DNA from: Anaeromyxobacter dehalogenans 2CP-1
Lineage (GTDB): Bacteria > Myxococcota > Myxococcia > Myxococcales > Anaeromyxobacteraceae
Direction of reading: 5' to 3'
NCBI RefSeq assembly: GCF_000022145.1
Contig: NC_011891.1
Location: 1-64,000 of the forward strand
DNA length: 64,000 nucleotides
Positions 19,512 through 34,518 of this stretch are shown here, in pieces (the first letter of the stretch is position 1; the number at the start of each line of letters is the position of its first letter). The notes under the pieces are model-generated. The model did not search any database. It was not told the origin of the DNA and saw only the letters and a list, made by a program, of their open reading frames with translations. Made by a program: the position numbers and the translations under genes.

Positions 19512-20252
19512 GTGGCGCTCCCTCCGCAGAAGCCCGGACGTCCCGCCGGTCCCCCGCCGTCCGCGGAGGAGGCGGCGCGCGCCGCGCGCCACGCCACCGA
19601 CGAGCTCACCGACGAGACCGCCAAGCTGGAGGAGGAGCTCGAGGCGCTGAAGGCGAGGTACGAGCAGTACTTCCTCGGCACGGAGCGCCGCGAGCCGGCG
19701 CACTGGCGCGACGAGGTGCGCAAGAAGGTGCTCCGGCTGAAGGGCGCCTTCACCCGCAACACCGGGCTCCGCTTCCGGATCCAGTCGCTCCACGCGCGCT
19801 ACCTCTCCTACGAGCGGCTCTGGCAGCGGAGCGTGCGCGAGCGCGAGGAGGGCACCTACCGGCGCGACCTGCTGAAGGCGCGCCGGCACGCGCGCGAGGC
19901 GGAGGGGACCCCGGCGGCCGCCGCCGCGAGCGCCACGCCGGCGCCCGGGTCCGCGTCCGCATCACCCAGGGTGGAGTCGCCCGCGGCCGTCGCCAGGCCG
20001 TCCGCGACGCCGCCGCCCGCTCCGTCCGCCGCCGGCGGCGACGAGGCGCGGATGCGCGCGCTCTACGACGCGTACATCTCGGCGAAGAAGCAGTGCCACG
20101 AGGACGTCTCGCGGCTCAGCTACGACGTGGTCGCCCGCAGCGTGGCGAAGCAGGTCCCCGAGGTCATGGCCCGGTTCAAGGCCAAGTCGGTGGACTTCCG
20201 CGTCGAGGTGAAGGACGGCAAGGCGATCCTGAAGGCGATCCCGCGCGTCTGA
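19512..20252 (+). CDS. myxobacterial coiled-coil protein (MXAN_5187 C-terminal-like)
   Basis: The 246-residue protein has a charged helical N-terminal half predicted as coiled coil (about residues 20-75, DELTDETAKLEEELEALKARYEQYF), then an Ala/Pro-rich linker (135-170). A compact C-terminal domain, MRALYDAYISAKKQCHEDVSRLSYDVVARSVAKQVPEVM, ends it. That last block recalls the MXAN_5187 C-terminal family of myxobacteria; this is from memory and unchecked. No signal peptide. GTG 19512 is used. The function is unknown. Confidence 0.65.
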   Translation: MALPPQKPGRPAGPPPSAEEAARAARHATDELTDETAKLEEELEALKARYEQYFLGTERREPAHWRDEVRKKVLRLKGAFTRNTGLRFRIQSLHARYLSYERLWQRSVREREEGTYRRDLLKARRHAREAEGTPAAAAASATPAPGSASASPRVESPAAVARPSATPPPAPSAAGGDEARMRALYDAYISAKKQCHEDVSRLSYDVVARSVAKQVPEVMARFKAKSVDFRVEVKDGKAILKAIPRV

Positions 20253-20488
20253 CCCGCCTCGCTGCACCCGGACGCAACGTCGGCTGGCGCCCGTCGTGAA
20301 TCCCCACGACGTGGCGCGGGGCGCGCACGCCGCCCCGCCGGTGCGGCGCGAAGCACATTCTCCTGTGGTGAAGCGGATCTGCGCGGCGGCCACCGCGCGG
20401 GTGCCCTGTCACCACCGGGAGGTTCCCTCGCACATGGTAAGTGACCAACGTCCTCCCCGAGCGTCTGCTGGTGTGGGGGGAGGAAAGC

Positions 20489-20881
20489 TTGCGAGCGCTG
20501 CTGCCGTCGATCGCCGCCGTCCTGCTCTGCGCTGCGTGCGGCAGGTCCGACGCCGACGCGCGCCGGGCGCGGCTCGGGGCCGAGCGCCGCGCGCTCGAGG
20601 CGACGCTCGATCACCTCGAGGATCGCCTCATCGTGAACCAGGCGCGCGTGCGGTTCTGGAAGGAGATGCAGTCGCGGCACGAGAGCGTGACCGCCGTCGC
20701 CTGCACCTCGCAGGAGGAGCACGCCATCGAGATGGCGCGCCACGTCCTGCCCGGCGAGCCCGCCCGCCGCGCCGGCCGCCGCGCCTCCACCGAGCGCGCG
20801 TCCATCGACCGCGCCCGCGTGGCCGCCGCCCCGAACGCCCCGTCCCCGGCGCCCGCCCGCACCGCCGCCGCCGCGCCGTAG
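20489..20881 (+). CDS. small secreted or lipoprotein of unknown function
   Basis: TTG 20489 is chosen because a strong GGGGAGGAA ribosome-binding site lies just before it. The 130-residue product then starts with a signal peptide (MRALLPSIAAVLLCAACGR). The Cys after CAA may be lipidated, though the lipobox is atypical. A short helical segment (ALEATLDHLEDRLIVNQARVRFWKEMQSRH) and a low-complexity Ala/Arg/Pro tail follow. A terminator lies 57 bp downstream. No family was recognised. Confidence 0.55.
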   Translation: MRALLPSIAAVLLCAACGRSDADARRARLGAERRALEATLDHLEDRLIVNQARVRFWKEMQSRHESVTAVACTSQEEHAIEMARHVLPGEPARRAGRRASTERASIDRARVAAAPNAPSPAPARTAAAAP

Positions 20882-20937
20882 CCTCCCCGCGCCCGCCCTG
20901 CTCGCGTCCCCCCGCCGGCCCGCGCCTCCCTGGCCAG

Positions 20938-20960
20938 CGTCTACCGCTCGTAGACGTTTT
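20938..20960 (+). terminator. rho-independent terminator
   Basis: A 7-bp stem CGTCTAC/GTAGACG with loop CGCTC is followed by TTTT (20957-20960). It ends the transcript of the small secreted protein gene and separates it from tRNA-Phe. Confidence 0.8.
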
Positions 20961-21039
20961 CGGTTTGCGTCCGGCCCCGTTCGATCGTAAAAGGGCTGCC
21001 CGCGGCCGGCGCCTTGCCGGCCGCAAGCGCCGTGAAAAC

Positions 21040-21112
21040 GCCTGGGTAGCTCAGTCGGTAGAGCAGGGGACTGAAAATCCCCGTGTCGCTGGTTCGATTC
21101 CGGCCCCAGGCA
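21040..21112 (+). tRNA. tRNA-Phe (anticodon GAA), integration target
   Basis: The 73-nt cloverleaf has acceptor arms GCCTGGG/CCCAGGC, anticodon stem GGGGA/TCCCC with loop CTGAAAA (GAA), and a GGTTCGATTCC T-arm. CCA is not encoded. Its 3' part from 21071 is supplied by the integrated element and is repeated at 34476-34518, so the gene remains functional after integration. Confidence 0.95.
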
Positions 21113-22295
21113 CTCCTTCCGAGCTCGAACACCATCGTGGCCCGCCAGATCGCGAGATCTGGCGGGCCTTCTGATTTTCGTGTGGCAGGTTCTCCGCCAC
21201 AACGGGAGGCGCTCCGGTTCCCAGGAGTCCCTCCTCTCCCACGAGTCGACCCAGTGCTGCTTCCGATGTGCTTCCGACGCTGGGCACGGCGACGGACGGG
21301 AGCTTCGCGACCGCGCGGCGGAGGTTCTCGTCGTTCAAGCGGCCGTACACGAGGTCCACCATGCGCGTCGAGGCGTGGCCCAGGAGCTTCGCGACGACGG
21401 CCGAGTCCTCGCCCTGCTGCTTCATCCACGACGCGAAGGTCCGGCGCAGGTCGTTCGGGCTCACGCGGGCCACGCCCGCGTGCGCGCACGCGATCCGCAG
21501 GTCTCGGCCGACGTTCGCCCACGCCTCCACGACGAAGCCCTTCTTCGACGGGTCGCTTGCGAGTTCGTCGGCCAGCGGCTGCAGGATCGGAACCGAGCGC
21601 CGCGCCTTCGCGGTCTTCGTGCCCGGGAGCACGAGCCAGCCCGTCTCCAGGTTGACGTGCGTGTCCCACCGCAGCGCCTCGACCTCGGATCGGCGCGCCC
21701 CAGAGTAGACCGCCACCATGATCCAGCGCCGCCGCTTCGCGTCGAGCACGGCGAGGAGCTTCCCGAACTCCTCGACGGAGAGGTGCCGCTCGCGCGGCCG
21801 GTACGTCACGCGGAACGGTGGGAAGATCGAGCGCGGGTCGCCCACGTAGAGCTTGCGGGCCTTCGCCGTCTCCAGGGCGACGCGGAGGGTCGAGAGTTCC
21901 TTCCGCACCGTCTCTCGGGCCGCTCCCTCACCCAGCCGCTGGTTGATGTAGTCCTGCACCTTGTCGAGCGAGAGCGCGTGGACCTGCTGATCGCCGAAGA
22001 CGCGGACCAGATGGCCGCCCTTCTTCGCGTACATCTCCAGCGTCCCCTCGGCGCGGTCCGAGCAGCCAACCTCCACGATGAAGCGGACGGTGTCCTCTAC
22101 GGTGTGCGGGGCCGCGTTCGAGGCCGCACCACCCGAAGCATGGGCCTCCCGCTCGAACTGGCGGAGGCGGTCGCGGGCGATGCGGCGGTCGGCCGTCCGG
22201 AGGGAGCGAGTGACCCGCTTGCCGTCCGGGCCGTAGAACCAGCCGTAGTACCACCCGTTCTTCTGGCACGACTTCCGGAAGAGGTGCTCGCCCAC
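21051..22295 (-). CDS. int: tyrosine recombinase integrase
   Basis: The integrase catalyses site-specific recombination at the tRNA-Phe 3' end. The 414-residue protein has an N-terminal arm-binding region, a SAM-like core-binding domain (about 65-150) and the catalytic domain. Visible catalytic residues are Arg201 (SGARRSE), Lys227, Arg284 (NDLRRTF, with Asn at the usual first His), His307 (LLGHAS) and nucleophile Tyr317. GTG 22295 follows GGAGGA. About 40 C-terminal residues are encoded by the terminator and attL, and the stop at 21051 lies inside the tRNA gene, so integration supplies the final codons. Confidence 0.93.
   Translation of the reverse strand: MGEHLFRKSCQKNGWYYGWFYGPDGKRVTRSLRTADRRIARDRLRQFEREAHASGGAASNAAPHTVEDTVRFIVEVGCSDRAEGTLEMYAKKGGHLVRVFGDQQVHALSLDKVQDYINQRLGEGAARETVRKELSTLRVALETAKARKLYVGDPRSIFPPFRVTYRPRERHLSVEEFGKLLAVLDAKRRRWIMVAVYSGARRSEVEALRWDTHVNLETGWLVLPGTKTAKARRSVPILQPLADELASDPSKKGFVVEAWANVGRDLRIACAHAGVARVSPNDLRRTFASWMKQQGEDSAVVAKLLGHASTRMVDLVYGRLNDENLRRAVAKLPSVAVPSVGSTSEAALGRLVGEEGLLGTGAPPVVAENLPHENQKARQISRSGGPRWCSSSEGVPGAGIEPATRGFSVPCSTD
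21071..21113 (+). repeat. attL, 43-bp direct repeat
   Basis: This copy of the core runs from the tRNA-Phe anticodon loop to its 3' end and is identical to 34476-34518. Similarity, now imperfect, continues to about 21180, including a following terminator hairpin. Confidence 0.95.
21139..21168 (+). terminator. tRNA-Phe terminator carried by the element
   Basis: A 12-bp stem (GGCCCGCCAGAT/ATCTGGCGGGCC) with a 6-nt loop is followed by TTCTGATTTT. It resembles the hairpin at 34541-34570 that served the tRNA before integration. It also lies inside the 3' end of the integrase frame on the other strand. Confidence 0.75.
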
Positions 22296-22477
22296 GGGTC
22301 CTCCATGCTGCCGTCGATGAAGGCTTCGAGATCGCGTTCAGCCACGCGGACCGCGCGGACGCCAAGCCGTGCGCGACCGATCTGCTGCATGAGCCGGTAG
22401 GCGGTCGAGAGCGGGACGCAGAGCCGAGCGGCGATGGCTTCGGCGTTCAGAAGCTGGGTGGGCGTCCTCGCGGTCAC
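22097..22477 (-). CDS. excisionase-like DNA-binding protein overlapping int
   Basis: The first half reads TQLLNAEAIAARLCVPLSTAYRLMQQIGRARLGVRAVRVAERDLEAFI, a winged-helix/MerR-like excisionase pattern. GTG 22477 is chosen; GTG 22546 is also in frame and lies beside the operator palindrome. The frame overlaps the start of int by 199 bases, and its last 65 or so residues (Arg/Ser/Thr/Pro-rich) look like shadow coding. The functional part may therefore end near 22295, or expression may be coupled to int. Confidence 0.6.
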   Translation of the reverse strand: MTARTPTQLLNAEAIAARLCVPLSTAYRLMQQIGRARLGVRAVRVAERDLEAFIDGSMEDPWASTSSGSRARRTGGTTAGSTARTASGSLAPSGRPTAASPATASASSSGRPMLRVVRPRTRPRTP

Positions 22478-22551
22478 CGGGGACCTGCTGGCCGGCGCGG
22501 TGCGGTGGGCGGCAGGGCCGCCGGGGCGAGGGAACTCGGCGCTCACCCTCT

Positions 22552-22597: not shown

Positions 22598-23185
22598 TCA
22601 TGCCGCCACCTGGCGGGCGGCCCATGTCGAACACCCGAGCGCCTCCGCGACCTCACGCCACGAGTGGCCCTCCTCCCGGAGGCGCTGCACCTGCACGCGC
22701 TCGGGCCGGGCGACCTGGGGGCGGCCGATGCGCTTCCCGGCGGCCCGCGCCTTCTGGATGCCGAGCTTCGTGCGCTCGCGGATCAGGTCGCGCTCGAACT
22801 CGGCCACCGATGCCAGCACGCCCAGGATGAGGCGGCTCATGGCGTCGCCCCCGGGCCGGATGTCGATGCCCTGCGTGATCGCGATGAACCGGACGCCGGC
22901 AGCGTCGAGGTCGCGGATGTTCGCCAGCACGTCGAGGGCGGAGCGGCCGAAGCGGTCGAGCTTCCAGACCACCACCGCGTCGAGCTTCCCGCGCCGGGCC
23001 GCCTCCATGAGCCGCTGGAGACCAGGGCGGTCGTTGCGGGCGCCGGAGCCCGTCTCCTCCATGTCGAGGACGACCTCGCCGCCGAGGCGTGCAGCCGCGC
23101 CGCGAAGCTCCTCGCGGGCGAGGCTGGCGTTCTGGTCGAGGGTCGAGACGCGGTGGTAGGTGGCGATCCGCGCGGGGTTGTTCAT
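22598..23185 (-). CDS. serine recombinase (resolvase/invertase family)
   Basis: The 195-residue protein starts ARIATYHRVSTLDQN with the nucleophile Ser14, followed by DRPGLQRLMEAARRGKLDAVVVWKLDRFGRS and SVAEFERDLIRERTKLGI, all hallmarks of small serine recombinases. A C-terminal helix-turn-helix (SWREVAEALGCSTWAARQV) binds DNA. ATG 23185 is the natural start. It may resolve multimers of the circular element or invert DNA; no inverted-repeat target was identified. It is divergent from the HTH gene at 23340. Confidence 0.92.
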   Translation of the reverse strand: MNNPARIATYHRVSTLDQNASLAREELRGAAARLGGEVVLDMEETGSGARNDRPGLQRLMEAARRGKLDAVVVWKLDRFGRSALDVLANIRDLDAAGVRFIAITQGIDIRPGGDAMSRLILGVLASVAEFERDLIRERTKLGIQKARAAGKRIGRPQVARPERVQVQRLREEGHSWREVAEALGCSTWAARQVAA

Positions 23186-23303
23186 CGCGATGGTGTAGCA
23201 ATACGTCCAGTTCCCACCAGCCCGTGACCATGGGGCCAACCCCGCGATCTGCGGGGGCGTGAGGCGGCCGTTCCCAGGGTCCCCTTCCCGCAGGCCGTGC
23301 CCG

Positions 23304-23321
23304 GCGTGCCGGCCGGCACGC
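23304..23321. promoter_or_regulatory. perfect 18-bp palindrome, putative operator
   Basis: GCGTGCCGG is followed directly by its complement CCGGCACGC. The site lies 18 bp before GTG 23340 in the divergent space between the serine recombinase and the HTH gene, where an autoregulatory operator would be expected. Confidence 0.45.
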
Positions 23322-23339
23322 GACGGCAATCTAGGGTGA

Positions 23340-23780
23340 GTGAAGACCATCGACGCGAAAACTCGGGCCAAGATCGCCCGGGGATGGGCCGGCTCGTCCC
23401 TGACGCAGGACGAGTACGCGGCGAAGTACGGGATCAGCGCCCGGACGCTCCGCCTGTACCGCTCGCGGTATGCCAGCCGGCAACCTCCAGTGGACCAGGT
23501 ACGCGCGATCATCACCGGCGCGATGCAGGAGCTTCGAGACCTGCTCGACAGCCTGGATCGCGAGGAGCCCAAGGCGGCATGCCACTCGGTCACTTGCACT
23601 GACCAGAAGCTCGTCGAAGATGCGGGCGTCGTCGGTCTGAACGACGACGCGGTGAACGCGCTAGTCGCGTCCGTGCGTGCCGAGTTCGCCGCGCTTCCCG
23701 AGGCCGAGGAGGTTGGTTCGGCGCGCCCGAGGGCGCGGCCCGGCTCGTTCTTCGCGGACATGGACGCCCTCCCGAGGTAG
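23340..23780 (+). CDS. small HTH protein of unknown function
   Basis: The 146-residue protein has an N-terminal helix-turn-helix (SLTQDEYAAKYGISARTLRLYRSRY, residues 19-43). A helical middle part and an Arg/Pro-containing tail ending FFADMDALPR follow. AGGG lies just before GTG 23340. The HTH resembles those of transposase-associated or regulatory proteins. It is a candidate for the regulator that binds the element's palindromes, but this is only position-based. It lies directly upstream of the primase-helicase. Confidence 0.6.
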   Translation: MKTIDAKTRAKIARGWAGSSLTQDEYAAKYGISARTLRLYRSRYASRQPPVDQVRAIITGAMQELRDLLDSLDREEPKAACHSVTCTDQKLVEDAGVVGLNDDAVNALVASVRAEFAALPEAEEVGSARPRARPGSFFADMDALPR

Positions 23781-23863
23781 CCGGCGTTCGAATGCTGCGG
23801 TTGCGTCTCGCGGCGCCTCTTGGTCGAGCAGCGATCCTGCTGAACGGCGGAGCAGCGTTTCGT

Positions 23864-23874
23864 ACTGTTACAGT
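23864..23874. promoter_or_regulatory. operator palindrome copy 2 (before the primase-helicase)
   Basis: The perfect 11-bp site ACTGTTACAGT ends 2 bp before GTG 23877. TACTGT (23863-23868) could serve as a -10 element for a nearly leaderless transcript. Together with copy 1 it suggests co-regulation of excision and replication. Confidence 0.5.
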
Positions 23875-23876
23875 CG

Positions 23877-26224
23877 GTGGTGAGCCACTTCATCGCGAAC
23901 AACGAAGTCAGCCCGAGTCCCACCTCCACCCCCGACTCCACCTCGAACGACGCCGCTGCCCGTCCGAAGACGCTTTCCGAACGCCACTGCCAGCACCTGG
24001 TGGACAGCGGTCTCACCGCCGAGACCATCGCTCGTCGCGGCTTCTACTCCTGTTCCGACGCGGAGGGCCGCAAGATCTTGAACTGGTCCGAGCGCGTGCG
24101 CGGCAACGCCAGCGGCCTGGTGATCCCGTACCCCAACGTCCCTGGGTACGCGAAGATCCGCCCGGACAGTCCCCGGCTGCGGTCGGGTGAGTGGCCGGCG
24201 CCCGCGAACGAGCCTCACCACGACTACCGCGTCGGAGACGCGCGCTGGGAGCCCGAGCCGGAGGTCAGGAAGTACGAGGCGCCCATCGGCAGCATGCCGC
24301 ACGCCTACATCCCGGTCGACGCCTGTGCCTCGTTCTCGGACGCCGAGGTTCGGCTGTACGTCACCGAGGGTGAGAAGAAGACGGAGGTGCTGTGCCAGCA
24401 GGGCCAGCCCTGCATCAGCATTCCCGGCGTGTCGAACGCCCACGACGTCGACCACCGGCGCGAGGCCCAGGACTGGGGGGGGGCTCGGAGTGGAAGCTCT
24501 CGCCGGAACTCCGCAAGTACGTGCTTCCCGACCGCGAGGTCTGTCTCGTGTTCGACACGCCCGACATGGAGAAGAACGTGAACGCGATCCGCGCCTGCAT
24601 CCGGGCGGCGCGCATGATCAAGGAAGAGGGCGCGGTTCCGCTCGTCGGCTACGTCCCGCCGATCCCGAAGCTGGAGAAGACGGGGATCGATGACTACTTC
24701 GTCAACGCGCAGAAGCGGTCCGTCGCGTACCCGAAGTCGTACAACCCGCTGGAGGGCGACTTCGCAGACGCCAGGCCGGTCGGACCGAACGAGTTGATCG
24801 AGTGGCTGGTCGAGCAGAAGGACGAGGCCGGCTGGGAGCGCGACGACGTTCTCCCGGAGCTTCGGCGGGCGGCGATCTGGGCGCGCGTGTGGCACGAACG
24901 CGAGCGCCGCGCGTGGCACGCATGGACTCGGCGGGCGGCGAAGACCTTCTTCGTCGGCCAGGACGAGATCGAGCAGATGGTCGCACACCTCGGTCTTGCG
25001 CAGCGCGACGAGCCGAAGGCGTCGTCGTGGAACGACTTCGATGACGGGAAGATCCTGGAGCACTGCGTCCCGATCCTGAACCACGCCTTCCGGTTGCTGG
25101 TGGACCGGAACGGGACTGAGCGCATTTTCCAAGTGAACGACCGGAACGAGGCCACCCTCCAGCAGTCGAACGCCAACATCCACAAGGCGCTCCACGACGC
25201 ACTGAAGGCAGAGTTCGGGACGGTTCCGCCGGCCCGCCTGCTCGAAGCATCGAACGTCCTCTGGAAGAAGGAGACGGCCCGCCTCGCGGAGGAGCCCGAG
25301 CCGTTCTGCTTCGCTGGGGACGACCGGGTCTGCTTCAAGCGGTTCGACTGGAAGCCCGCCGAGGCACCGTTCCCCGCGTGGGAGGAGTTCCTGACCCGCC
25401 TTTCCGACCGCGAAGCGTTCATGGCCTTCGTCTGGTCGTGCTTCGAGAAGAAGAACCGCAGCCGCCAGTACCTTTGGCTCCGAGGCGAGGGTCAGGACGG
25501 CAAGTCCAAGGTCCTGGGCGTCCTGCTTGAAGTCTTCGGACCGGCGGGTGCCGCGATCAACAACTCCCACGTCGAGAAGGGGAACCAGTTCTTCTTTTCG
25601 GCGCTGTACGGGAAGCGGCTGGTCATCTACCCCGACTGCAAGAACGCGAAGTTCGGCATGAAGGAGATCGTCCGGAACTGCACGAGCGGCGATCCGGTGG
25701 CGGTCGAGTTCAAGGGCGAGACGCCGTTCACCACCGTGCTCCGGATCAGGTTGTTCGTCGCGAGCAACACGAAGCCCGAGTTCACGAGCCAGGCCGCCGA
25801 CCGCTCTCGGATCATCTACGTCGAGGTCGCGGAGTCCGCGAGCAAGGACGACCCGACCTGGGAGGAGCGGCTGAAGGCGCAGCTTCCTGGGTTCCTCTGG
25901 TCGTGCAAGGCCACCTACGAAAGGGTGTGCGCGCACCACGGCGACATCCCGGTCTCGGAGCAGACCAAGGCGATGCTCGACGAGGCGGCAGTGGCGTTCG
26001 AGGAGCAGTTCCACGACATCTTCGACGCTCACTTCAGTGAGGCACCGGGCGAGGCCGCACCCGCGAAGCCCGTCGCGACGATCCTGCGCGGCTACGGGAT
26101 GAACAACAACCAGATCAACGACTTCAAGGCGTGGATGGGACGGGTCCACCGCGTCGTGTATCGGCCGAGGAAGGACGGCCGTGTATACGAGGGACTCGCG
26201 TTCCTTCCGAGCAGCGTCCGGTGA
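23877..26224 (+). CDS. TOPRIM primase-D5-like helicase, frameshifted at a G9 run
   Basis: Two overlapping frames form one protein of about 780 residues. The first (from GTG 23877) holds a DUF3854-like TOPRIM domain with RLYVTEGEKKTEVL; after the shift the TOPRIM Asp motif CLVFDTPDMEKN follows. The second half is an SF3/D5-type helicase with Walker A LRGEGQDGKSK and LVIYPDC, continuing to the stop at 26222-26224. The shift lies in nine G at 24475-24483; ten (or seven) would restore the frame. It should initiate replication of the excised element. Its stop codon lies in the first iteron. Confidence 0.8.
24475..24483 (+). other. G9 homopolymer at the primase frameshift
   Basis: Nine consecutive G follow GACT. 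In the upstream frame the reading leaves the conserved sequence here; the downstream frame resumes as GGSEWKLSPELRKYV. The run could be a sequencing error, a true mutation, or a site of transcriptional slippage or phase variation. Confidence 0.7.
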
Positions 26225-26394
26225 CGAAGGTGACGGAGGATGACGGACCCGTCCGTCATCTTCCGTGCGCCGTCCTGGGCGCTCGCGCGTCGAGGTGACG
26301 GACGTGACGGACGAACTTCAAATCAGAGCAGAAGAGAGAAGCGACTTAGGCTCTACGAGAACGCCCGCCTCATCCGTCCGTCACCTTCCGTCAT
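26222..26394. repeat. iteron array, candidate replication origin of the element
   Basis: At least eight copies of [G/A]TGACGGA occur in 173 bp directly after the helicase gene: 26222 (variant), 26230-26237, 26240-26248, 26251-26259 (inverted), 26295-26303, 26304-26312, 26376-26384 (inverted) and 26386-26394 (inverted). 26239-26260 is a 10-bp-arm inverted repeat with a 2-bp spacer; 26295-26312 is a perfect tandem pair. An A-rich, low-GC patch (26313-26350) lies between the clusters, like an unwinding element. No gene occupies 26225-26454. Confidence 0.7.
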
Positions 26395-26420
26395 TCCGGA
26401 TCGCCACCGCCGTGCGCTCT

Positions 26421-26431
26421 ACGGTGACAGT
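26421..26431. promoter_or_regulatory. degenerate third copy of the operator palindrome
   Basis: ACGGTGACAGT matches ACTGTTACAGT at 9 of 11 positions, and flanking bases also resemble copy 1 (CTCTAC before, GC after). It lies between the iterons and a convergent gene, so it is not an obvious promoter operator; a role at the origin is possible. Confidence 0.3.
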
Positions 26432-26454
26432 GCCTCTGTGGCAGGTCATGGTGC

Positions 26455-27756
26455 TCAGCGAAAGGTTCGCCAGCAGTCGAACACAGCCTCAAGGAACGGG
26501 ATGAGCGCCTGCTCTTCCTCGGATACTCGCTCAAGAATGATGCCGGTAGGTTCGCGACGAAACAGAGTCGTCAGCGCGAACCGCACTCCGCTCTTGTCGG
26601 CAGCGACCGTGTGCACGGCTTCACGGCGATTCGGATCTTCGGCGGGACGAACCCCAGACTTGCCGGTCCCTAACCAGATTTCGTTACTCGAAATCAACGC
26701 ATCGGCTCGGGTACGTTCGACCTCGGGTCTGATCGCCTGCCACATCAGAACGTGAAGGTCGGTCTTCTCGTCCGGTCTCGGAACTCCGATGAAACGAACC
26801 AGCTTGCCATCGCGCAGGAGATGGAACGTATGAACCAGGTAACCGTCCGCCCGAAGAAGCTGAACCCCTACTTCGTGGAGGTGGCGTGCTTGGTCTCGGA
26901 GCGGAAGATCCTTTATTCGCTTCCAGTCAGGGGGCGCCGCCGACTTGCTCTCGTACTTGGCGCGTAGCCTCTCTAGGTCCTTCTTAGTTCCCTTCTTGAT
27001 GGTCCGTGTTCGGGGCACATAGAAGCGACCTCGCTTGAGGTCCACGACTGACGTGCGGGCCTCCTGCGAAGCGGACATGCACGCTGGCCGCCCCGCGAGA
27101 AACTCCTGAGCGTATCCAGCGGACTTGTCGCATTCGATCAGGCCGCACTCCGACCCGCCCGCTACAACGTGCGCGTCGCTTACCAACGCAGAGAGTAGTC
27201 CGTAGACAGAAGCAAGAGCCTCAAGGAGTTCTCTGCCCGGGAGGTCAGGCAGTTCCCAACGTCGTTCGACGACAAGGATCCCGTCCTCGCGGACCTCGTG
27301 AGGAGCCGTCGCAGCGATGGCGACAGCGATCTCTTTGCAGGAGGCAGTCGGAGGACCCTCGAACGGCACGAACTCGCCGGCTTCGACATACCCACGCAGA
27401 AGCCGAACGTGAACGAGACTCGCAGTGTCGAGGTCCCCTTCCTTCACGACCTTATTGCGAAGGTCGACTATCCACCGCGCAGCGTCGCTCTCGCCGAGCC
27501 GTTTTCTCCATGCGGCGTACCACTCATCGAATCCCGGCGCTGAAAAGCGCTCCTTCTGGAGAACGAACGTAACGTTGCGAAGCTCCTGGATCGCCGAGTT
27601 TAGAAACGTGCGGAACCCATCGGGATCCTCGTAGTTGTTGAGCGCCTCGTGCCATAGCCGGTGGGCCGATTCGAGCCGCCGGTGAGTGTTCCGGATCGGA
27701 CACGACTCGTGGACGACCGTGCGGAAGCTGGCCTTGCGCTTGCTGCGGCTCGCCAT
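26455..27756 (-). CDS. unknown 433-residue cargo protein
   Basis: No family was recognised. The protein is soluble. It has a helical N-terminal third (about residues 25-120) with FLNSAIQELRNVTFVLQKE, RWIVDLRNKVVKEGDLDTASLVHV. A central part contains GGSECGLIECDKSAGYAQEFLAGRPACM, then a basic segment (RTRTIKKGTKKDLERLRAKYESK) and a C-terminal domain with FIGVPRPDEKTDLHVLMWQAIRPEVERTRADALISSNEIW. The LRN-x-V-x-K-x-GD segment recalls HEPN-like proteins but lacks the RNase motif. It runs convergently to the primase-helicase and has lower GC than chromosomal genes. Confidence 0.65.
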   Translation of the reverse strand: MASRSKRKASFRTVVHESCPIRNTHRRLESAHRLWHEALNNYEDPDGFRTFLNSAIQELRNVTFVLQKERFSAPGFDEWYAAWRKRLGESDAARWIVDLRNKVVKEGDLDTASLVHVRLLRGYVEAGEFVPFEGPPTASCKEIAVAIAATAPHEVREDGILVVERRWELPDLPGRELLEALASVYGLLSALVSDAHVVAGGSECGLIECDKSAGYAQEFLAGRPACMSASQEARTSVVDLKRGRFYVPRTRTIKKGTKKDLERLRAKYESKSAAPPDWKRIKDLPLRDQARHLHEVGVQLLRADGYLVHTFHLLRDGKLVRFIGVPRPDEKTDLHVLMWQAIRPEVERTRADALISSNEIWLGTGKSGVRPAEDPNRREAVHTVAADKSGVRFALTTLFRREPTGIILERVSEEEQALIPFLEAVFDCWRTFR

Positions 27757-27966
27757 TCGCTATCCCCAAATCCAGTGTAGCAGGCGAGCGGCGGGCGATC
27801 GCTCATGGTTCCCAAGGTTGTTTCCGCGTGGCGAGGTCAGGCCACATGATTCGGGGGTTGTAGATGTCCACCGTCGTGCTATCCCGCCGACCGATGGTCT
27901 TCCGCCGCGCCAGACGGACGGGGCCCGGCCGCCGGTAGGCTGCGCGGCTCGGCCCCGTCCACGACG

Positions 27967-29054: not shown

Positions 29055-30518
29055 TCAGGCCGACGGCTCGGGTCTGGGTGGCGTCCAGTTGTGCGGCAGG
29101 AGCTCGTCGATCCGCGACGCCGGATGCGTCTGCACGCGGAGGAGGACGTCGGCGAGGTAGTCGACCGGGTTGATGCCGTTCGCCTCGCACGTCGCGATGA
29201 GCGAGTACAGGCCGGCCAGGTTCTCGCCCGCCGCGTCCGTTCCAACAAACAGGAAGTTCTTCCGTCCGAGGGCGCAGACGCGCAGCGCGCCCTCGCTCGC
29301 GTTGTTGTCGATGGGTAGATGGGGATCGGTGAGGAAGAGCGTCAGCTCGTTCCACTGGCCAAGCGCGTAACCGATCGCGACGCCGATCGGCGAGCGTGGC
29401 GGATGCCGCCCCTGCACGGCATCGAGCCACGCCCTGATCTCGTCGATGACGACGCGGCTGCGCGTCTGCCGCATCGCGAGGTGCTCCGGAGTGCCGAGCA
29501 GATCCGCGTCGAGCGCAGCGCGCTCGATCTTGTACAGCTCGAGGATGAGCTCCATCGCGTGCTTGGCGGCCGCTGTCGCGGTCGACTGGGCGTCGAAGAA
29601 CTTCCTGCGAGCGTGGGCCCAGCAGCCGGCGCGTTCGCGTCCGCCCGGCAGCGTCACCTTGTTGTAGCCCTCGTACCCGTCGACGAGCAGCTTGCCGATC
29701 GTGCCTTCAAGCACGCGGACCGGAGTCTCGCCCGATCGGCTGCGGGAGAAGACGTACGCGATCAGCTCACGCTCCGCTTCGTCGCGCGCGATGAAGCTCC
29801 AGATCCAGGCGGTGCGCGTCTTCCCCTTCGCCTGCACGCGATGCGTCGTCTCGTCCGCGAGCACGATCTCCTTCTCGGCGACGAGATGCAGGAGCCGCTC
29901 GTAGAGGGGGTCCACCAGCTCCGCGGTTCGGTGGAAGAGATCGCCGAGGGTCGAGTCGTTCACCTCGACTCCGGTGCGCCGGTACGCCTTCGCCTGGCGG
30001 TAGAGCGGGAGTGAGTCGGCGCACTTCGAGACTGCCACCTGCGCCATGAACGTCGGGCCGAAGCGCGTCTTGTCGAACACCTTCGCCGGCCCGTCGGCGG
30101 TGATGATGGTCTCGCCGCACCGGCAGCGGACCTTCTTCTGCACGTGGAGCTGCCGCTCGATGCGCGCGGGGACGAGCTCGTACAACTCCGTCACCTTGCC
30201 TTCGCCGAGCGGCGTGAACTCGTGGCCTCCGCACTTCGGGCACGACTTCTGGTCTTCGCGGACCTCGTGAACGATCTTGCGAGCGACGAGCTGCCGCTTC
30301 TTCTCGGCGTTCTCACGCCGCTTCTGCTGGGCGGCGATCCGCTCGGCCTCGGCGTGCGCCGGATCGCGGATCGCCTCGGAGATCGGCGGCATCTTCTCGG
30401 AGCGCGCGCCGAACTGGTGGCGCTGCAGCTTCTCGAGCGTCGCTTCGACCTGCGCGAGCCGGGCCTCGAGCGCTTCGGCTCGCTCGCGCCACTCGCAACG
30501 ATGATCGTCGCCGCCCAT
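29055..30518 (-). CDS. IS66 transposase TnpC (DDE)
   Basis: The 487-residue transposase has an N-terminal leucine-zipper-like coiled coil, the zinc-finger pair CPKCGGHEF...CRCGE, and the DDE core (VLADETTHRVQ with the first Asp, LLVDGYEGYN with the second). The C-terminal segment is LPIDNNASEGALRVCALGRKNFLFVGTDAAGE, typical of IS66. The length is normal and the frame is intact, so it may be active. Confidence 0.95.
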   Translation of the reverse strand: MGGDDHRCEWRERAEALEARLAQVEATLEKLQRHQFGARSEKMPPISEAIRDPAHAEAERIAAQQKRRENAEKKRQLVARKIVHEVREDQKSCPKCGGHEFTPLGEGKVTELYELVPARIERQLHVQKKVRCRCGETIITADGPAKVFDKTRFGPTFMAQVAVSKCADSLPLYRQAKAYRRTGVEVNDSTLGDLFHRTAELVDPLYERLLHLVAEKEIVLADETTHRVQAKGKTRTAWIWSFIARDEAERELIAYVFSRSRSGETPVRVLEGTIGKLLVDGYEGYNKVTLPGGRERAGCWAHARRKFFDAQSTATAAAKHAMELILELYKIERAALDADLLGTPEHLAMRQTRSRVVIDEIRAWLDAVQGRHPPRSPIGVAIGYALGQWNELTLFLTDPHLPIDNNASEGALRVCALGRKNFLFVGTDAAGENLAGLYSLIATCEANGINPVDYLADVLLRVQTHPASRIDELLPHNWTPPRPEPSA

Positions 30519-30531
30519 CGGCGACTGTAGA

Positions 30532-30930
30532 TCACGCCGGAGCGGGCTTGTCCATGGGACGAGCGGCCTGAGGATCCGACTGGGACGGCTGCCAGTGCTC
30601 AGGCCGGCGGACGCGTCCGAAGTCGATGCCGTCGAGGAGCATCGCGAGCTGTGTCGCGTCGATCTCGACGGCCATCGTCGATGGATCCATGTGGGGCAGC
30701 TTGAACTGCCCGCGCTCGAGCCGCTTGTACACCAAGACGAACCCGCCCTTGTCCCACGTCAGGATCTTCACGCGGTCCCACCGCCGCGAGACGAAGACGA
30801 ACAGGTGGCCCGAGTACGCGTCCTTCGCGAGCTCGTTCTGCACGATCGCGTGAAGGCCATCGATCGACTTGCGCATGTCGATCGGCGTCGAGCCGATGTA
30901 GATGCGCACCGAGCGCGGGATGGTGATCAC
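30532..30930 (-). CDS. IS66 accessory protein TnpB
   Basis: The 132-residue protein matches the IS66 Orf2 family: IYIGSTPIDMRKSIDGLHAIV, GHLFVFVSRRWDRVKILTWDKGGFVLVYKRLERGQF. GTG 30930 overlaps the tnpA stop (GTGA). It is needed with TnpA and TnpC for IS66 transposition. Confidence 0.95.
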   Translation of the reverse strand: MITIPRSVRIYIGSTPIDMRKSIDGLHAIVQNELAKDAYSGHLFVFVSRRWDRVKILTWDKGGFVLVYKRLERGQFKLPHMDPSTMAVEIDATQLAMLLDGIDFGRVRRPEHWQPSQSDPQAARPMDKPAPA

Positions 30931-31319
30931 GACGCGAGCGCAGCGGCGAGGGCGCGGACGTACGCGAGGTCGGTGCCGGCGGTGAAGCGGAGGCGGGCAC
31001 CGGACGGGAAGAGCAGCTCCAGGGCGGCGTCCGCGGCGACCGCTGCGGCCGTGTCTTGCCGCGCCTTAGGCGCGGACGCTACCACGCGCACCGGCACGAG
31101 ACGCGAGCCCTCTGGAGCGGCGCGACGCTCAGGTACTTGATCTGAGCGCTCCGGCGCCTGCGAGACGAGCGGTCGCGACTCTTTGCGCAGGCGGTAGATC
31201 CAGTAACGCAAGTTGCTGAGCGGGATTCCTCGCTCCGTCGCGAACTCGCGCTGCGGGAGATCGCACGACTCGAAGTCGGCGACGAGCTTGGTCCAGCGGC
31301 TTCTGTCCTGGTCGGCCAT
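30927..31319 (-). CDS. IS66 accessory protein TnpA
   Basis: The 130-residue protein begins MADQDRSRWTKLVADFESCDLPQREFATERGIPLSNLRYWIYRLRKE, the usual IS66 TnpA helix-turn-helix. ATG 31319 follows GGAGGA at good spacing and is preferred over ATG 31361. It is the first gene of the coupled tnpABC set. Confidence 0.9.
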   Translation of the reverse strand: MADQDRSRWTKLVADFESCDLPQREFATERGIPLSNLRYWIYRLRKESRPLVSQAPERSDQVPERRAAPEGSRLVPVRVVASAPKARQDTAAAVAADAALELLFPSGARLRFTAGTDLAYVRALAAALAS

Positions 31320-31436
31320 GAGGTCCTCCGCGAGAGAAGCGCGGAGGATCTCGTCGCTCATGGGCGCGCGCTACACGTCCAGCGCCGGGCGGTTACGGAG
31401 TCCGAGCACCCGGCGGACGAGAAGCTCCCTGAGTTC

Positions 31437-31861: not shown

Positions 31862-31918
31862 TCTGTCAAGTAGCGCGTAAAGTCAGTGCCGGAGAATCAA
31901 CCCCAAACAGGACGATGC

Positions 31919-32710
31919 ATGCCGCCCCTGCCGGAGTACCCGCGAGTTCTGTTCAAGAAGTCGCCGCTGAGGCTGGTCGTCGGCCAGATTCGGTTCCCGC
32001 TCCAACTTCGGCTCGCCGACACTGCCTTCACTGCTCCGTTTCAGGATGCGCTGGCGGACGACTATCCGGTCGCAGCCCGGGAGCAGCAGGTCGCCTTCCA
32101 AGTGACCCCCAAGGGTGGTCTTCAGGCTGCTCCCTCCGAAACACTCCTTCGCTTCGCTAGCCGAAACGGCGACTGGGCCGTCGTCCTCGGCGAGTCCGCG
32201 CTGACGCTGGAAGTGCGAGGCTACTCTGCCGTCGAGGAGTTTTCGTCGCGTTTCGAAAAGGTGCTCGGCGCGGCGAAGGAACGACTGAGGTTGCGCGAGA
32301 GGTCGAGGCTCGGGCTTCGATACATCAACGAGTTCAGACACGACGCGGGCCGGTCGCTAGCTGACTGGGCCAAGCTGATGAACCCAGAGCTTTTGGGATT
32401 CGCTGGGAACAACCTGCTCGGCGGAACCGTCGAGCACATGGCCCATGAAGTAAGGGTGCGCCGCGACGACGGCGTTCTCGCGATTCGGCATGGTCTGCTT
32501 GTGGGCGGCGTCGTTGAGCCGATCCCTACGGCACCAGTCGCGGAGGGGCGCTTTTACCTCCTCGACATGGACTACTACGACGAGCGCCCGAGTCCTCTCG
32601 ACATCGCCGCGACATCACGAGCACTGACCGCGTACAACGATGTGATGTACCGCTTCTTTAGATGGTCTCTCGGTGAATCGATGTACAAGCACCTGGAGCC
32701 CAACGAATGA
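31919..32710 (+). CDS. TIGR04255-like protein
   Basis: The 263-residue protein resembles the sporadically distributed TIGR04255 family: it begins PPLPEYPRVLFKKSPLRLVVGQIRFP and later has RSRLGLRYINEF. The family's activity is not known to me, and it often appears in mobile or variable regions. ATG 31919 follows AGGA at good spacing; GTG 31886 is an alternative. The TGA stop overlaps the next ATG (ATGA), so the first two genes of the cassette are coupled. Confidence 0.7.
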   Translation: MPPLPEYPRVLFKKSPLRLVVGQIRFPLQLRLADTAFTAPFQDALADDYPVAAREQQVAFQVTPKGGLQAAPSETLLRFASRNGDWAVVLGESALTLEVRGYSAVEEFSSRFEKVLGAAKERLRLRERSRLGLRYINEFRHDAGRSLADWAKLMNPELLGFAGNNLLGGTVEHMAHEVRVRRDDGVLAIRHGLLVGGVVEPIPTAPVAEGRFYLLDMDYYDERPSPLDIAATSRALTAYNDVMYRFFRWSLGESMYKHLEPNE

Positions 32711-33552
32711 GCGCTGCGCTGGCTACGCTTGCTACCGGGGCGGACACGGGCATGTACAGGCCCGCTCACCCCGAGAACGAGAACGTGATTCTGGCGGCTT
32801 CGCTGTGGGAGTCGCTGTACGGCTTCCTCGTCCGCGCGCCGGGGCCTCGCACGGGCCAGGACACGATGCCGGCTCCGAAGCACACAGCCGTCCGAAACTG
32901 GTTCGCGCTCGTGGACGTTCAGACGCAGCCGACCGGGTACGGATGGATATCCGCTCCGGTTCTCCGGGCGTATGTCGCCGAAGGTGACCCCCAGGACTTG
33001 GACGAGACCGATTCAGGAGAACAAGCGGTTTCGTTCGCCGCCGAAGCGAACGTTGGCGGTCCCCACGCACTGGACGAGAGAGCACGCCCGCTTTCGACTG
33101 TGGCCGTCGCACCCGAGGCGCAGGCGGTCACGCGCCTCGTCACGCTCACTGGTCTGGAGATGGAGAGGATCGCTTCCCTCCTCGGCGTGTCGAGAACCAC
33201 GCTCTACGCCTGGCGCGACGGATCGAAGCCACGGGGGAGCAAGCGTGATCACCTGCTTCAGGTCGTCGCCGTCATCGAAGAAGTTGCCCGCCGGTTCGGG
33301 GAGCCCAGAACCGTCGCTGCTTGGCTCCTAACGCCGTCGCCCGCAAGTAACCTCATGCCCTTCGATGTGATCAGGGAGCGCCGGTATGAACTGTGCCGGG
33401 GCATGCTGACGCGAAGGAGGACTGCTCGCCCGACGCTGCCGCAGCGGGCGCCCCGACGCCTCTCGGCAACGCAACTCCGGGAGGGACTCGACCGGATGTC
33501 GGCAAAGCCCTTCGCGGACGACTACGAGCCTGAGGAGGAGCAGGGCGACTGA
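32707..33552 (+). CDS. HTH protein with DUF2384 (MbcA/ParS)-like C-terminus
   Basis: The 281-residue protein has an unclassified N-terminal half, then a helix-turn-helix (MERIASLLGVSRTTLYAWRDGSKPRG). A segment like the antitoxin Xre/MbcA/ParS domain follows (EPRTVAAWLLTPSPASNLMPFDVIRERRYELCRGML). Such domains usually belong to antitoxins that also bind their own promoter. It is coupled to the TIGR04255-like gene and is 3 bp from the next gene. Antitoxin-like or regulatory function is inferred; no RES-type toxin is present. Confidence 0.6.
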   Translation: MSAALATLATGADTGMYRPAHPENENVILAASLWESLYGFLVRAPGPRTGQDTMPAPKHTAVRNWFALVDVQTQPTGYGWISAPVLRAYVAEGDPQDLDETDSGEQAVSFAAEANVGGPHALDERARPLSTVAVAPEAQAVTRLVTLTGLEMERIASLLGVSRTTLYAWRDGSKPRGSKRDHLLQVVAVIEEVARRFGEPRTVAAWLLTPSPASNLMPFDVIRERRYELCRGMLTRRRTARPTLPQRAPRRLSATQLREGLDRMSAKPFADDYEPEEEQGD

Positions 33553-34392: not shown

Positions 34393-34475
34393 ACTGCTTC
34401 CGATGTGCTACTCGCCCCGACGGCGCTTTGGAAATACCTTGTGAAGACGCGGTCGTCGCGGACGAGACGTAGGGC

Positions 34476-34518
34476 CTGAAAATCCCCGTGTCGCTGGTTC
34501 GATTCCGGCCCCAGGCAC
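34476..34518 (+). repeat. attR, 43-bp direct repeat (tRNA-Phe 3' remnant)
   Basis: Identical to 21071-21113. The sequence before 34476 has no tRNA character, so this is only the displaced 3' end of the original tRNA gene; excision between the repeats would restore the gene. Confidence 0.95.

Follow-up and report, generated by a model that had tools for sequence, protein, structure and literature searches.

A TGACGGA repeat array at the stop codon of an SF3 primase-helicase gene is a probable replication origin of a myxobacterial integrative element

Phage P4 has a replication origin with its own repeat sequence and a second cis region, crr. Its alpha protein is both primase and helicase according to the available part of PMC8628076, and in this it resembles the protein described here, in which a primase is fused to an SF3 helicase. 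In PICIs, the origin lies directly 3′ of rep and has an AT-rich region with a set of iterons on either side; a plasmid is maintained when it carries a cloned PICI pri-ori (accessible sections of PMC6092414). The accessible text of PMC7581432 describes SaPI Rep and SCCmec Cch2 as reading an origin just downstream of their own gene, through a C-terminal domain. Further parallels are offered by the cyanobacterial plasmid Rep CyRepA, a DUF3854 protein that has been shown to sustain plasmid replication, and by the crenarchaeal plasmid pRN1, whose origin is 3′ of its primase-helicase gene. However, the helicase part of CyRepA is described as DEXDc and the word 'iteron' is absent from the text of PMC10079941, while the pRN1 origin is a 100-nt stem-loop without iterons in the available part of PMC4234260.

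The locus that we describe lies in a window of 64,000 nucleotides, the whole stretch of Anaeromyxobacter dehalogenans 2CP-1 DNA that was analysed. As in the pri-rep-ori arrangement of PICIs and SaPIs, so far as the excerpts of their description go, iteron sets flanking an A+T-richer spacer are found directly 3′ of the primase-helicase gene (site order >><>><<; 49% versus 37% A+T). The SaPI5 primase-helicase (PDB: 7OLA) shares a related SF3 fold and detectable sequence similarity with the window protein, and both kinds of element carry an integrase and attachment repeats. The window differs from PICIs and SaPIs in its TGACGG/GTGAC word and in having an extra module A, and the myxobacterial arrays add a purine tract. 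SCCmec Cch2, a helicase of mobile elements, binds to repeats just 3′ of its own gene, as we propose for the window protein, but its iteron is AAGTG in three direct copies, its primase-polymerase is separate and its setting is staphylococcal cassettes (PMC7581432, in part). Because position and anatomy match those of PICI origins (PMC6092414) and the precedents in PMC7581432, within what the consulted sections of both report, we consider it very likely that the array acts in cis as the replication origin of the surrounding 13.4-kb integrative element. The array would then work like a PICI origin, an analogy drawn for an element known here from its sequence.

This element is inserted at tRNA-Phe (Table 1). 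In a sister genome of the same genus (G031) the site is empty, and the flank matches 19962-20750 and 20704-21542 overlap by the 47-bp core; integrase, attachment repeats and this empty site together provide the integrase and specific attachment site that are typical of PICIs. A candidate for the AlpA/Xis-type regulator of PICIs is ORF 22097-22546, which weakly matches phrog_66, 'excisionase and transcriptional regulator' (E=0.001), with HTH_17 below the cut-off. Adjoining the tyrosine integrase is an ORF for a serine resolvase-type recombinase (22598-23231; PF00239, E=4e-38). An IS66-type transposase with accessory ORFs is also found within the element (29055-31361; NF033517 for 29055-30518), the two ORFs upstream of the transposase being presumably its accessory genes by their position. 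The genes at 31886-33552 may be cargo: the first encodes a TIGR04255 protein (E=6e-51), and the ORF after it has weak similarity to Xre-type antitoxins. A different element probably occupies this tRNA-Phe site in another genome of the genus, where about 6 kb separate the two flanks and the core is present twice (G036:C338:54821-60946).

Table 1. Positions of the element, its replication gene and the repeat modules in the window
Feature	Position	Strand	Remarks
tRNA-Phe	21040..21113	+	3′ part 21067-21113 is the left attachment core
Right attachment core	34472..34518	+	46 of 47 positions identical to left core
Tyrosine integrase ORF	21051..22295	-	Pfam Phage_integrase E=5e-15; phrog_1 E=1e-53; at the tRNA end
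Primase-helicase gene (DUF3854 + SF3/DUF5906)	23877..26224	+	Two frames, 23877-24581 and 24392-26224; Pfam, PHROGs, NCBIfam and structure matches
Run of nine G	24475..24483	+	Point where the two primase-helicase frames part
Helicase C-terminal part	25958..26221	+	Winged-helix-like in the model; putative repeat-binding domain
Module A	26221..26266	no strand	Three direct copies (the first over the rep stop codon, one mismatch), then one inverted
Module B	26295..26394	no strand	Direct pair (copies 9 bp apart), then spacer, then inverted pair (10 bp apart)
Module B spacer with purine tract	26313..26374	+	Proposed strand-opening site

The array comprises seven exact copies of [G/A]TGACGGA, at 26230, 26240, 26295 and 26304 on the plus strand and at 26252, 26377 and 26387 on the minus strand, and one near-copy with a single mismatch, GTGACGAA, at 26221, giving a span of 26221-26394. 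The TGA of the near-copy is the stop codon (26222-26224) of ORF 24392-26224. The array therefore starts in the stop codon of the primase-helicase and holds copies in direct and inverted orientation, as a preliminary description of this DNA had noted; the 'eight or more' copies in 173 bp that it counted read as seven exact sites plus the near-copy. It had also reported a perfect tandem pair, which is the 9-bp GTGACGGAC repeated at 26295-26312, and an inverted repeat with 10-bp arms, which is real and has arms of 16 nt, 94% complementary and 2 nt apart (26233-26248 and 26251-26266). The 'A-rich patch' exists as a base-skewed stretch, better named a purine tract (20 purines in 24 positions, in a spacer of 49% A+T).

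Counting TGACGGA across the window had been proposed as a check, and this check is weak because the clustering is enriched and the total is not. The 64 kb contain 13 copies, seven of them in the array, against a shuffle mean of 9.1, and 16 of 100 shuffles reach 13. The clustering is exceptional: the most [G/A]TGACGGA copies found per 173 bp in 60 shuffles of the window was three, compared with seven in the real sequence, and no other 7-mer of the real 64-kb window has seven copies per 173 bp. Across the whole 5,029,329-bp genome, TGACGG-N1-6-TGACGG occurs at 12 places, three of which are within the array; with so few close pairs in 5 Mb, a dispersed genomic repeat was ruled out.

Inverted repeats right at a stop codon would also fit a transcription terminator or an RNA structure that ends the rep gene, and a single strand of the array folds better than its shuffles (z −4.5, computed as DNA), a result for which the inverted copies alone would suffice. 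We regard this explanation as extremely improbable. The array has direct copies besides the inverted ones, and in a second group of loci, described below, it is located upstream of the helicase gene. A terminator and a known RNA family were each rejected, as there is no terminator-like site in or near the array and no Rfam family at it.

Read instead as an origin, the array divides into two modules. The place and order of module A are the same in loci L012-L014 and L026. Module B generally has an inverted pair spaced by 9-10 bp and a spacer that is A- or GA-rich. In the window, the A+T fraction of the spacer is 0.49 compared with 0.37 around it, and its purine tract (20 of 24) has p=0.012. Such a just moderately A+T-rich spacer weighs against the origin reading. 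All 14 myxobacterial arrays tested have a spacer with a 24-nt tract of 20 or more purines, always on one and the same strand with respect to module A and each at p≤0.012; the set consisted of five window-type arrays and nine of the 16 loci of the second group. The tract is not general, since none of 106 viral modules reaches 21 purines in 24 and none was found among four alphaproteobacterial spacers tested.

The gene in front of the array encodes an SF3 helicase with a Walker A motif: PF19263 (SF3/DUF5906) matches over the cut-off (E=3e-10), and GEGQDGKS is kept in all relatives aligned. The match to TIGR01613, 'phage/plasmid primase, P4 family', is sub-cut-off at 72.8 versus 108.7 bits. A Foldseek search with a model of the second frame (mean pLDDT 69) returned the SaPI5 primase-helicase, NrS-1, and ASFV and poxvirus helicases, and SaPI5 7OLA was the sole match of a sequence-profile search of the PDB (E=0.0014). 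The array-adjacent gene matches no Pfam family of Rep_3/RepA type, the initiator class of iteron plasmids, up to E=1. DUF3854, which would contribute the priming activity, is split over two frames in the window and intact in the relative L003. In this single-contig genome, the rep gene is thus broken, slipping or mis-assembled at the nine-G run, and the window copy of the element may be inactive because its helicase gene is frameshifted. The helices and strands of model residues 492-579 follow a winged-helix order, as assigned by eye, with block pLDDT values of about 74-89.

Searching viral and genome contigs with the single window protein found no related loci. Three relatives with about 49% protein identity, from Corallococcus llansteffanensis, Myxococcus sp. 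RHSTA-1-4 and C. interemptor, have an array over the same stop codon. The site order is >><>><< in the window and in all three, at similar spacings, and their repeat is GTGACnnCC-like versus GTGACGGAC in the window. A constant layout with a drifting word is what would be expected of an array read by a protein. In L026, a Myxococcales MAG with 55% helicase identity, the order is >>><>><<<< and the primase domain is a different one, RepB_primase; the primase type is exchangeable (DUF3854 or RepB_primase), with helicase and origin remaining paired. The arrays of the three closest relatives are degenerate and escape a ranking by exact words (ranks 15, 10 and 15); alignment and site order do detect them. 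In all three close relatives (L023, L024 and L025), a tRNA-SeC gene about 3-6 kb downstream of the primase-helicase is possibly the integration site.

We searched IMG/VR with the DNA pattern of module B (four TGACGG sites), a choice of loci that ignores their proteins. With the last pair set at three different spacings, 55, 105 and 19 stretches matched. The backwards control pattern, at the spacing that gave 105, matched four, and one of these four control loci has a helicase. An ORF matched by the profile of alignment A5, a related SF3 helicase, is present in 118 of 143 module loci versus 3 of 120 random loci, which were drawn by means of an unrelated 15-mer (Fisher p=5e-45); the A5 profile detected no helicase in the other 25 module loci. 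In 106 of the 118, the distance from the helicase stop codon to the start of the module is between −22 and +189 bp (median 26), and random placement would put 6% within −60 to +400 of that codon. Elsewhere relative to the helicase are the modules of the remaining 12, four of them inside a long open frame. The 106 loci form 45, 33 and 18 groups at 90, 70 and 50% identity, with largest groups of 29, 59 and 70 members; the GC content of their representatives ranges from 35 to 72%, and the spacer is richer in A+T than its own locus in 105 of the 106. Many viral module B spacers (L214, L245, L257 and others) contain alternating GCGCGC runs within an otherwise A+T-richer stretch. Five named phage or plasmid relatives were inspected by eye. 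In TG1, phiSHEF2 and MWH-Nonnen-W8red 1, no such array lies 3′ of the primase. The other two, L412 (Pseudomonas phage MR14) and L414 (Lacticaseibacillus plasmid pCF11), have GTGAC repeats in either orientation behind a P4-family primase gene.

The viral loci bear on two other readings of the array. Partition centromeres, recombination sites and packaging sites are often clustered repeats too, and the array could be such a DNA-protein site. We judge this very improbable: in 106 of 118 viral loci the module keeps its position by the helicase stop codon, the attachment sites of the element are elsewhere (21067 and 34472), and an A+T-richer spacer between convergent pairs is an origin feature. Operators commonly hold inverted and direct repeats as well, and the array could control transcription as an operator bound by the helicase or by a small helix-turn-helix protein such as that encoded at 23340-23780, with no role as an origin. 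HTH-type ORFs, weakly similar to each other, are found near the arrays in the window and in L026, and a winged-helix-like ORF adjoins the array in L087. This reading is nonetheless very unlikely. ORFs 24392-26224 (+) and 26455-27756 (−) converge on the array, and a promoter would not be expected between their 3′ ends; a crude scan of 23200-27900 found no sigma-70-like promoter. None of the 106 viral module loci encodes a relative of the HTH proteins, whereas the helicase does track the module.

The rep-proximal origin proposed in the preliminary description is thus supported by the position and order of sites kept in relatives, by the blind module found beside SF3 helicases, and by a mobile element with integrase and empty site. 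Weighing against it are the frameshifted rep gene, the C-terminal profile result given below, the upstream arrays of the second myxobacterial group, the viral module loci in which the helicase is elsewhere or was not detected, and the three named relatives that have no array. We hypothesized that the integrase first excises the element and that the SF3 primase-helicase itself would bind the repeats via its C-terminal domain, assembling on module B, whose two site pairs converge. Between these pairs, the A/GA-rich spacer would then be opened, the helicase loaded, primers made by the primase part and extended by the host polymerase. Module A could be an accessory site, for extra loading, copy control or feedback on rep. 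The order of these steps and the continued function of the frameshifted window copy are assumptions of this scheme.

The candidate DNA-binding domain does not recur with the hexamer. A C-terminal profile built from 28 viral representatives misses the window group (3.3-5.3 bits, versus 46-54 for the helicase core). It also fails to separate TGACGG-type loci among 77 proteins and thus does not predict the repeat type, and a shared DNA-binding domain as the cause of the shared repeat was rejected on this test. Since the C-terminal domain does not track repeat type, the common word may reflect deep homology, convergence or another reader. The question raised is why one hexamer recurs and this domain does not. 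We tentatively suggest, as a rather doubtful generalization, a single origin type common to mobile replicons of 35%-72% GC: convergent pairs of TGACGG (core GTGAC) that enclose an A+T-richer spacer of 50-75 bp and follow directly on an SF3 helicase gene. The word would have been kept despite C-terminal domains diverged beyond detection, and its reader may therefore be something else. Candidates are a host factor, the primase, for which the word would be the start site, and the conserved core of the helicase. If this is true, DNA sequence would suffice to locate the origins of such replicons.

Outside well-studied hosts, few integrative elements and satellites have, to our knowledge, a defined replication origin. 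The module stands beside the same helicase class in 33 viral-contig helicase groups (at 70% identity) and in myxobacteria, which offers a testable pattern rule for origins. The kind of origin is already known; the recurring TGACGG word and the two-module layout look new, and a literature search on the repeat with 'iteron', and on origins downstream of primases, returned no match.

Across Myxococcota, DUF5906 was found at 48 places in 40 of 195 genomes. When 350-bp segments were ranked by exact repeats in 51 loci, the segment at the rep stop codon came first in 10 (1.3 expected); these 51 take in the window itself and six loci from other searches. A looser three-site pattern gave 51 rows at 47 distinct places in the 195 genomes, 12 of them beside a DUF5906 gene, and its backwards control gave three, so a three-site pattern lacks specificity in GC-rich DNA. 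It also misses the window because the window spacer is two bases too long. In the family of Novosphingobium sp. ST904, 25 of 298 genomes have a relative of its helicase, at 30 places. Two places were excluded for internal stops, and in 23 of the remaining 28 sphingomonad loci the 3′ segment ranks first (1.5 expected); L105, L106 and L122 carry GACGGA- or GTGACGGA-like words.

Some 3′ arrays use other words, for example GGTCCGGGT in L063. Nine copies of GGTCCGG are present 3′ of the DUF5906 ORF in each of L063 and L070, one of which is in the same genus. At about +1437 from the rep stop codon, L064 has 11 copies of CTTACC, and at about −4389 L066 has six copies of CCGTAACA. In the second myxobacterial type (16 loci), TGACGGA arrays are located about 0.5-1.3 kb upstream of the DUF5906 open frame. 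Read base by base and by eye, the reverse complement of L087 shows module A followed by module B. Genome G131 holds three copies of a DUF5906 element (L087, L088 and L089), with a TGACGGA array upstream of the replication genes.
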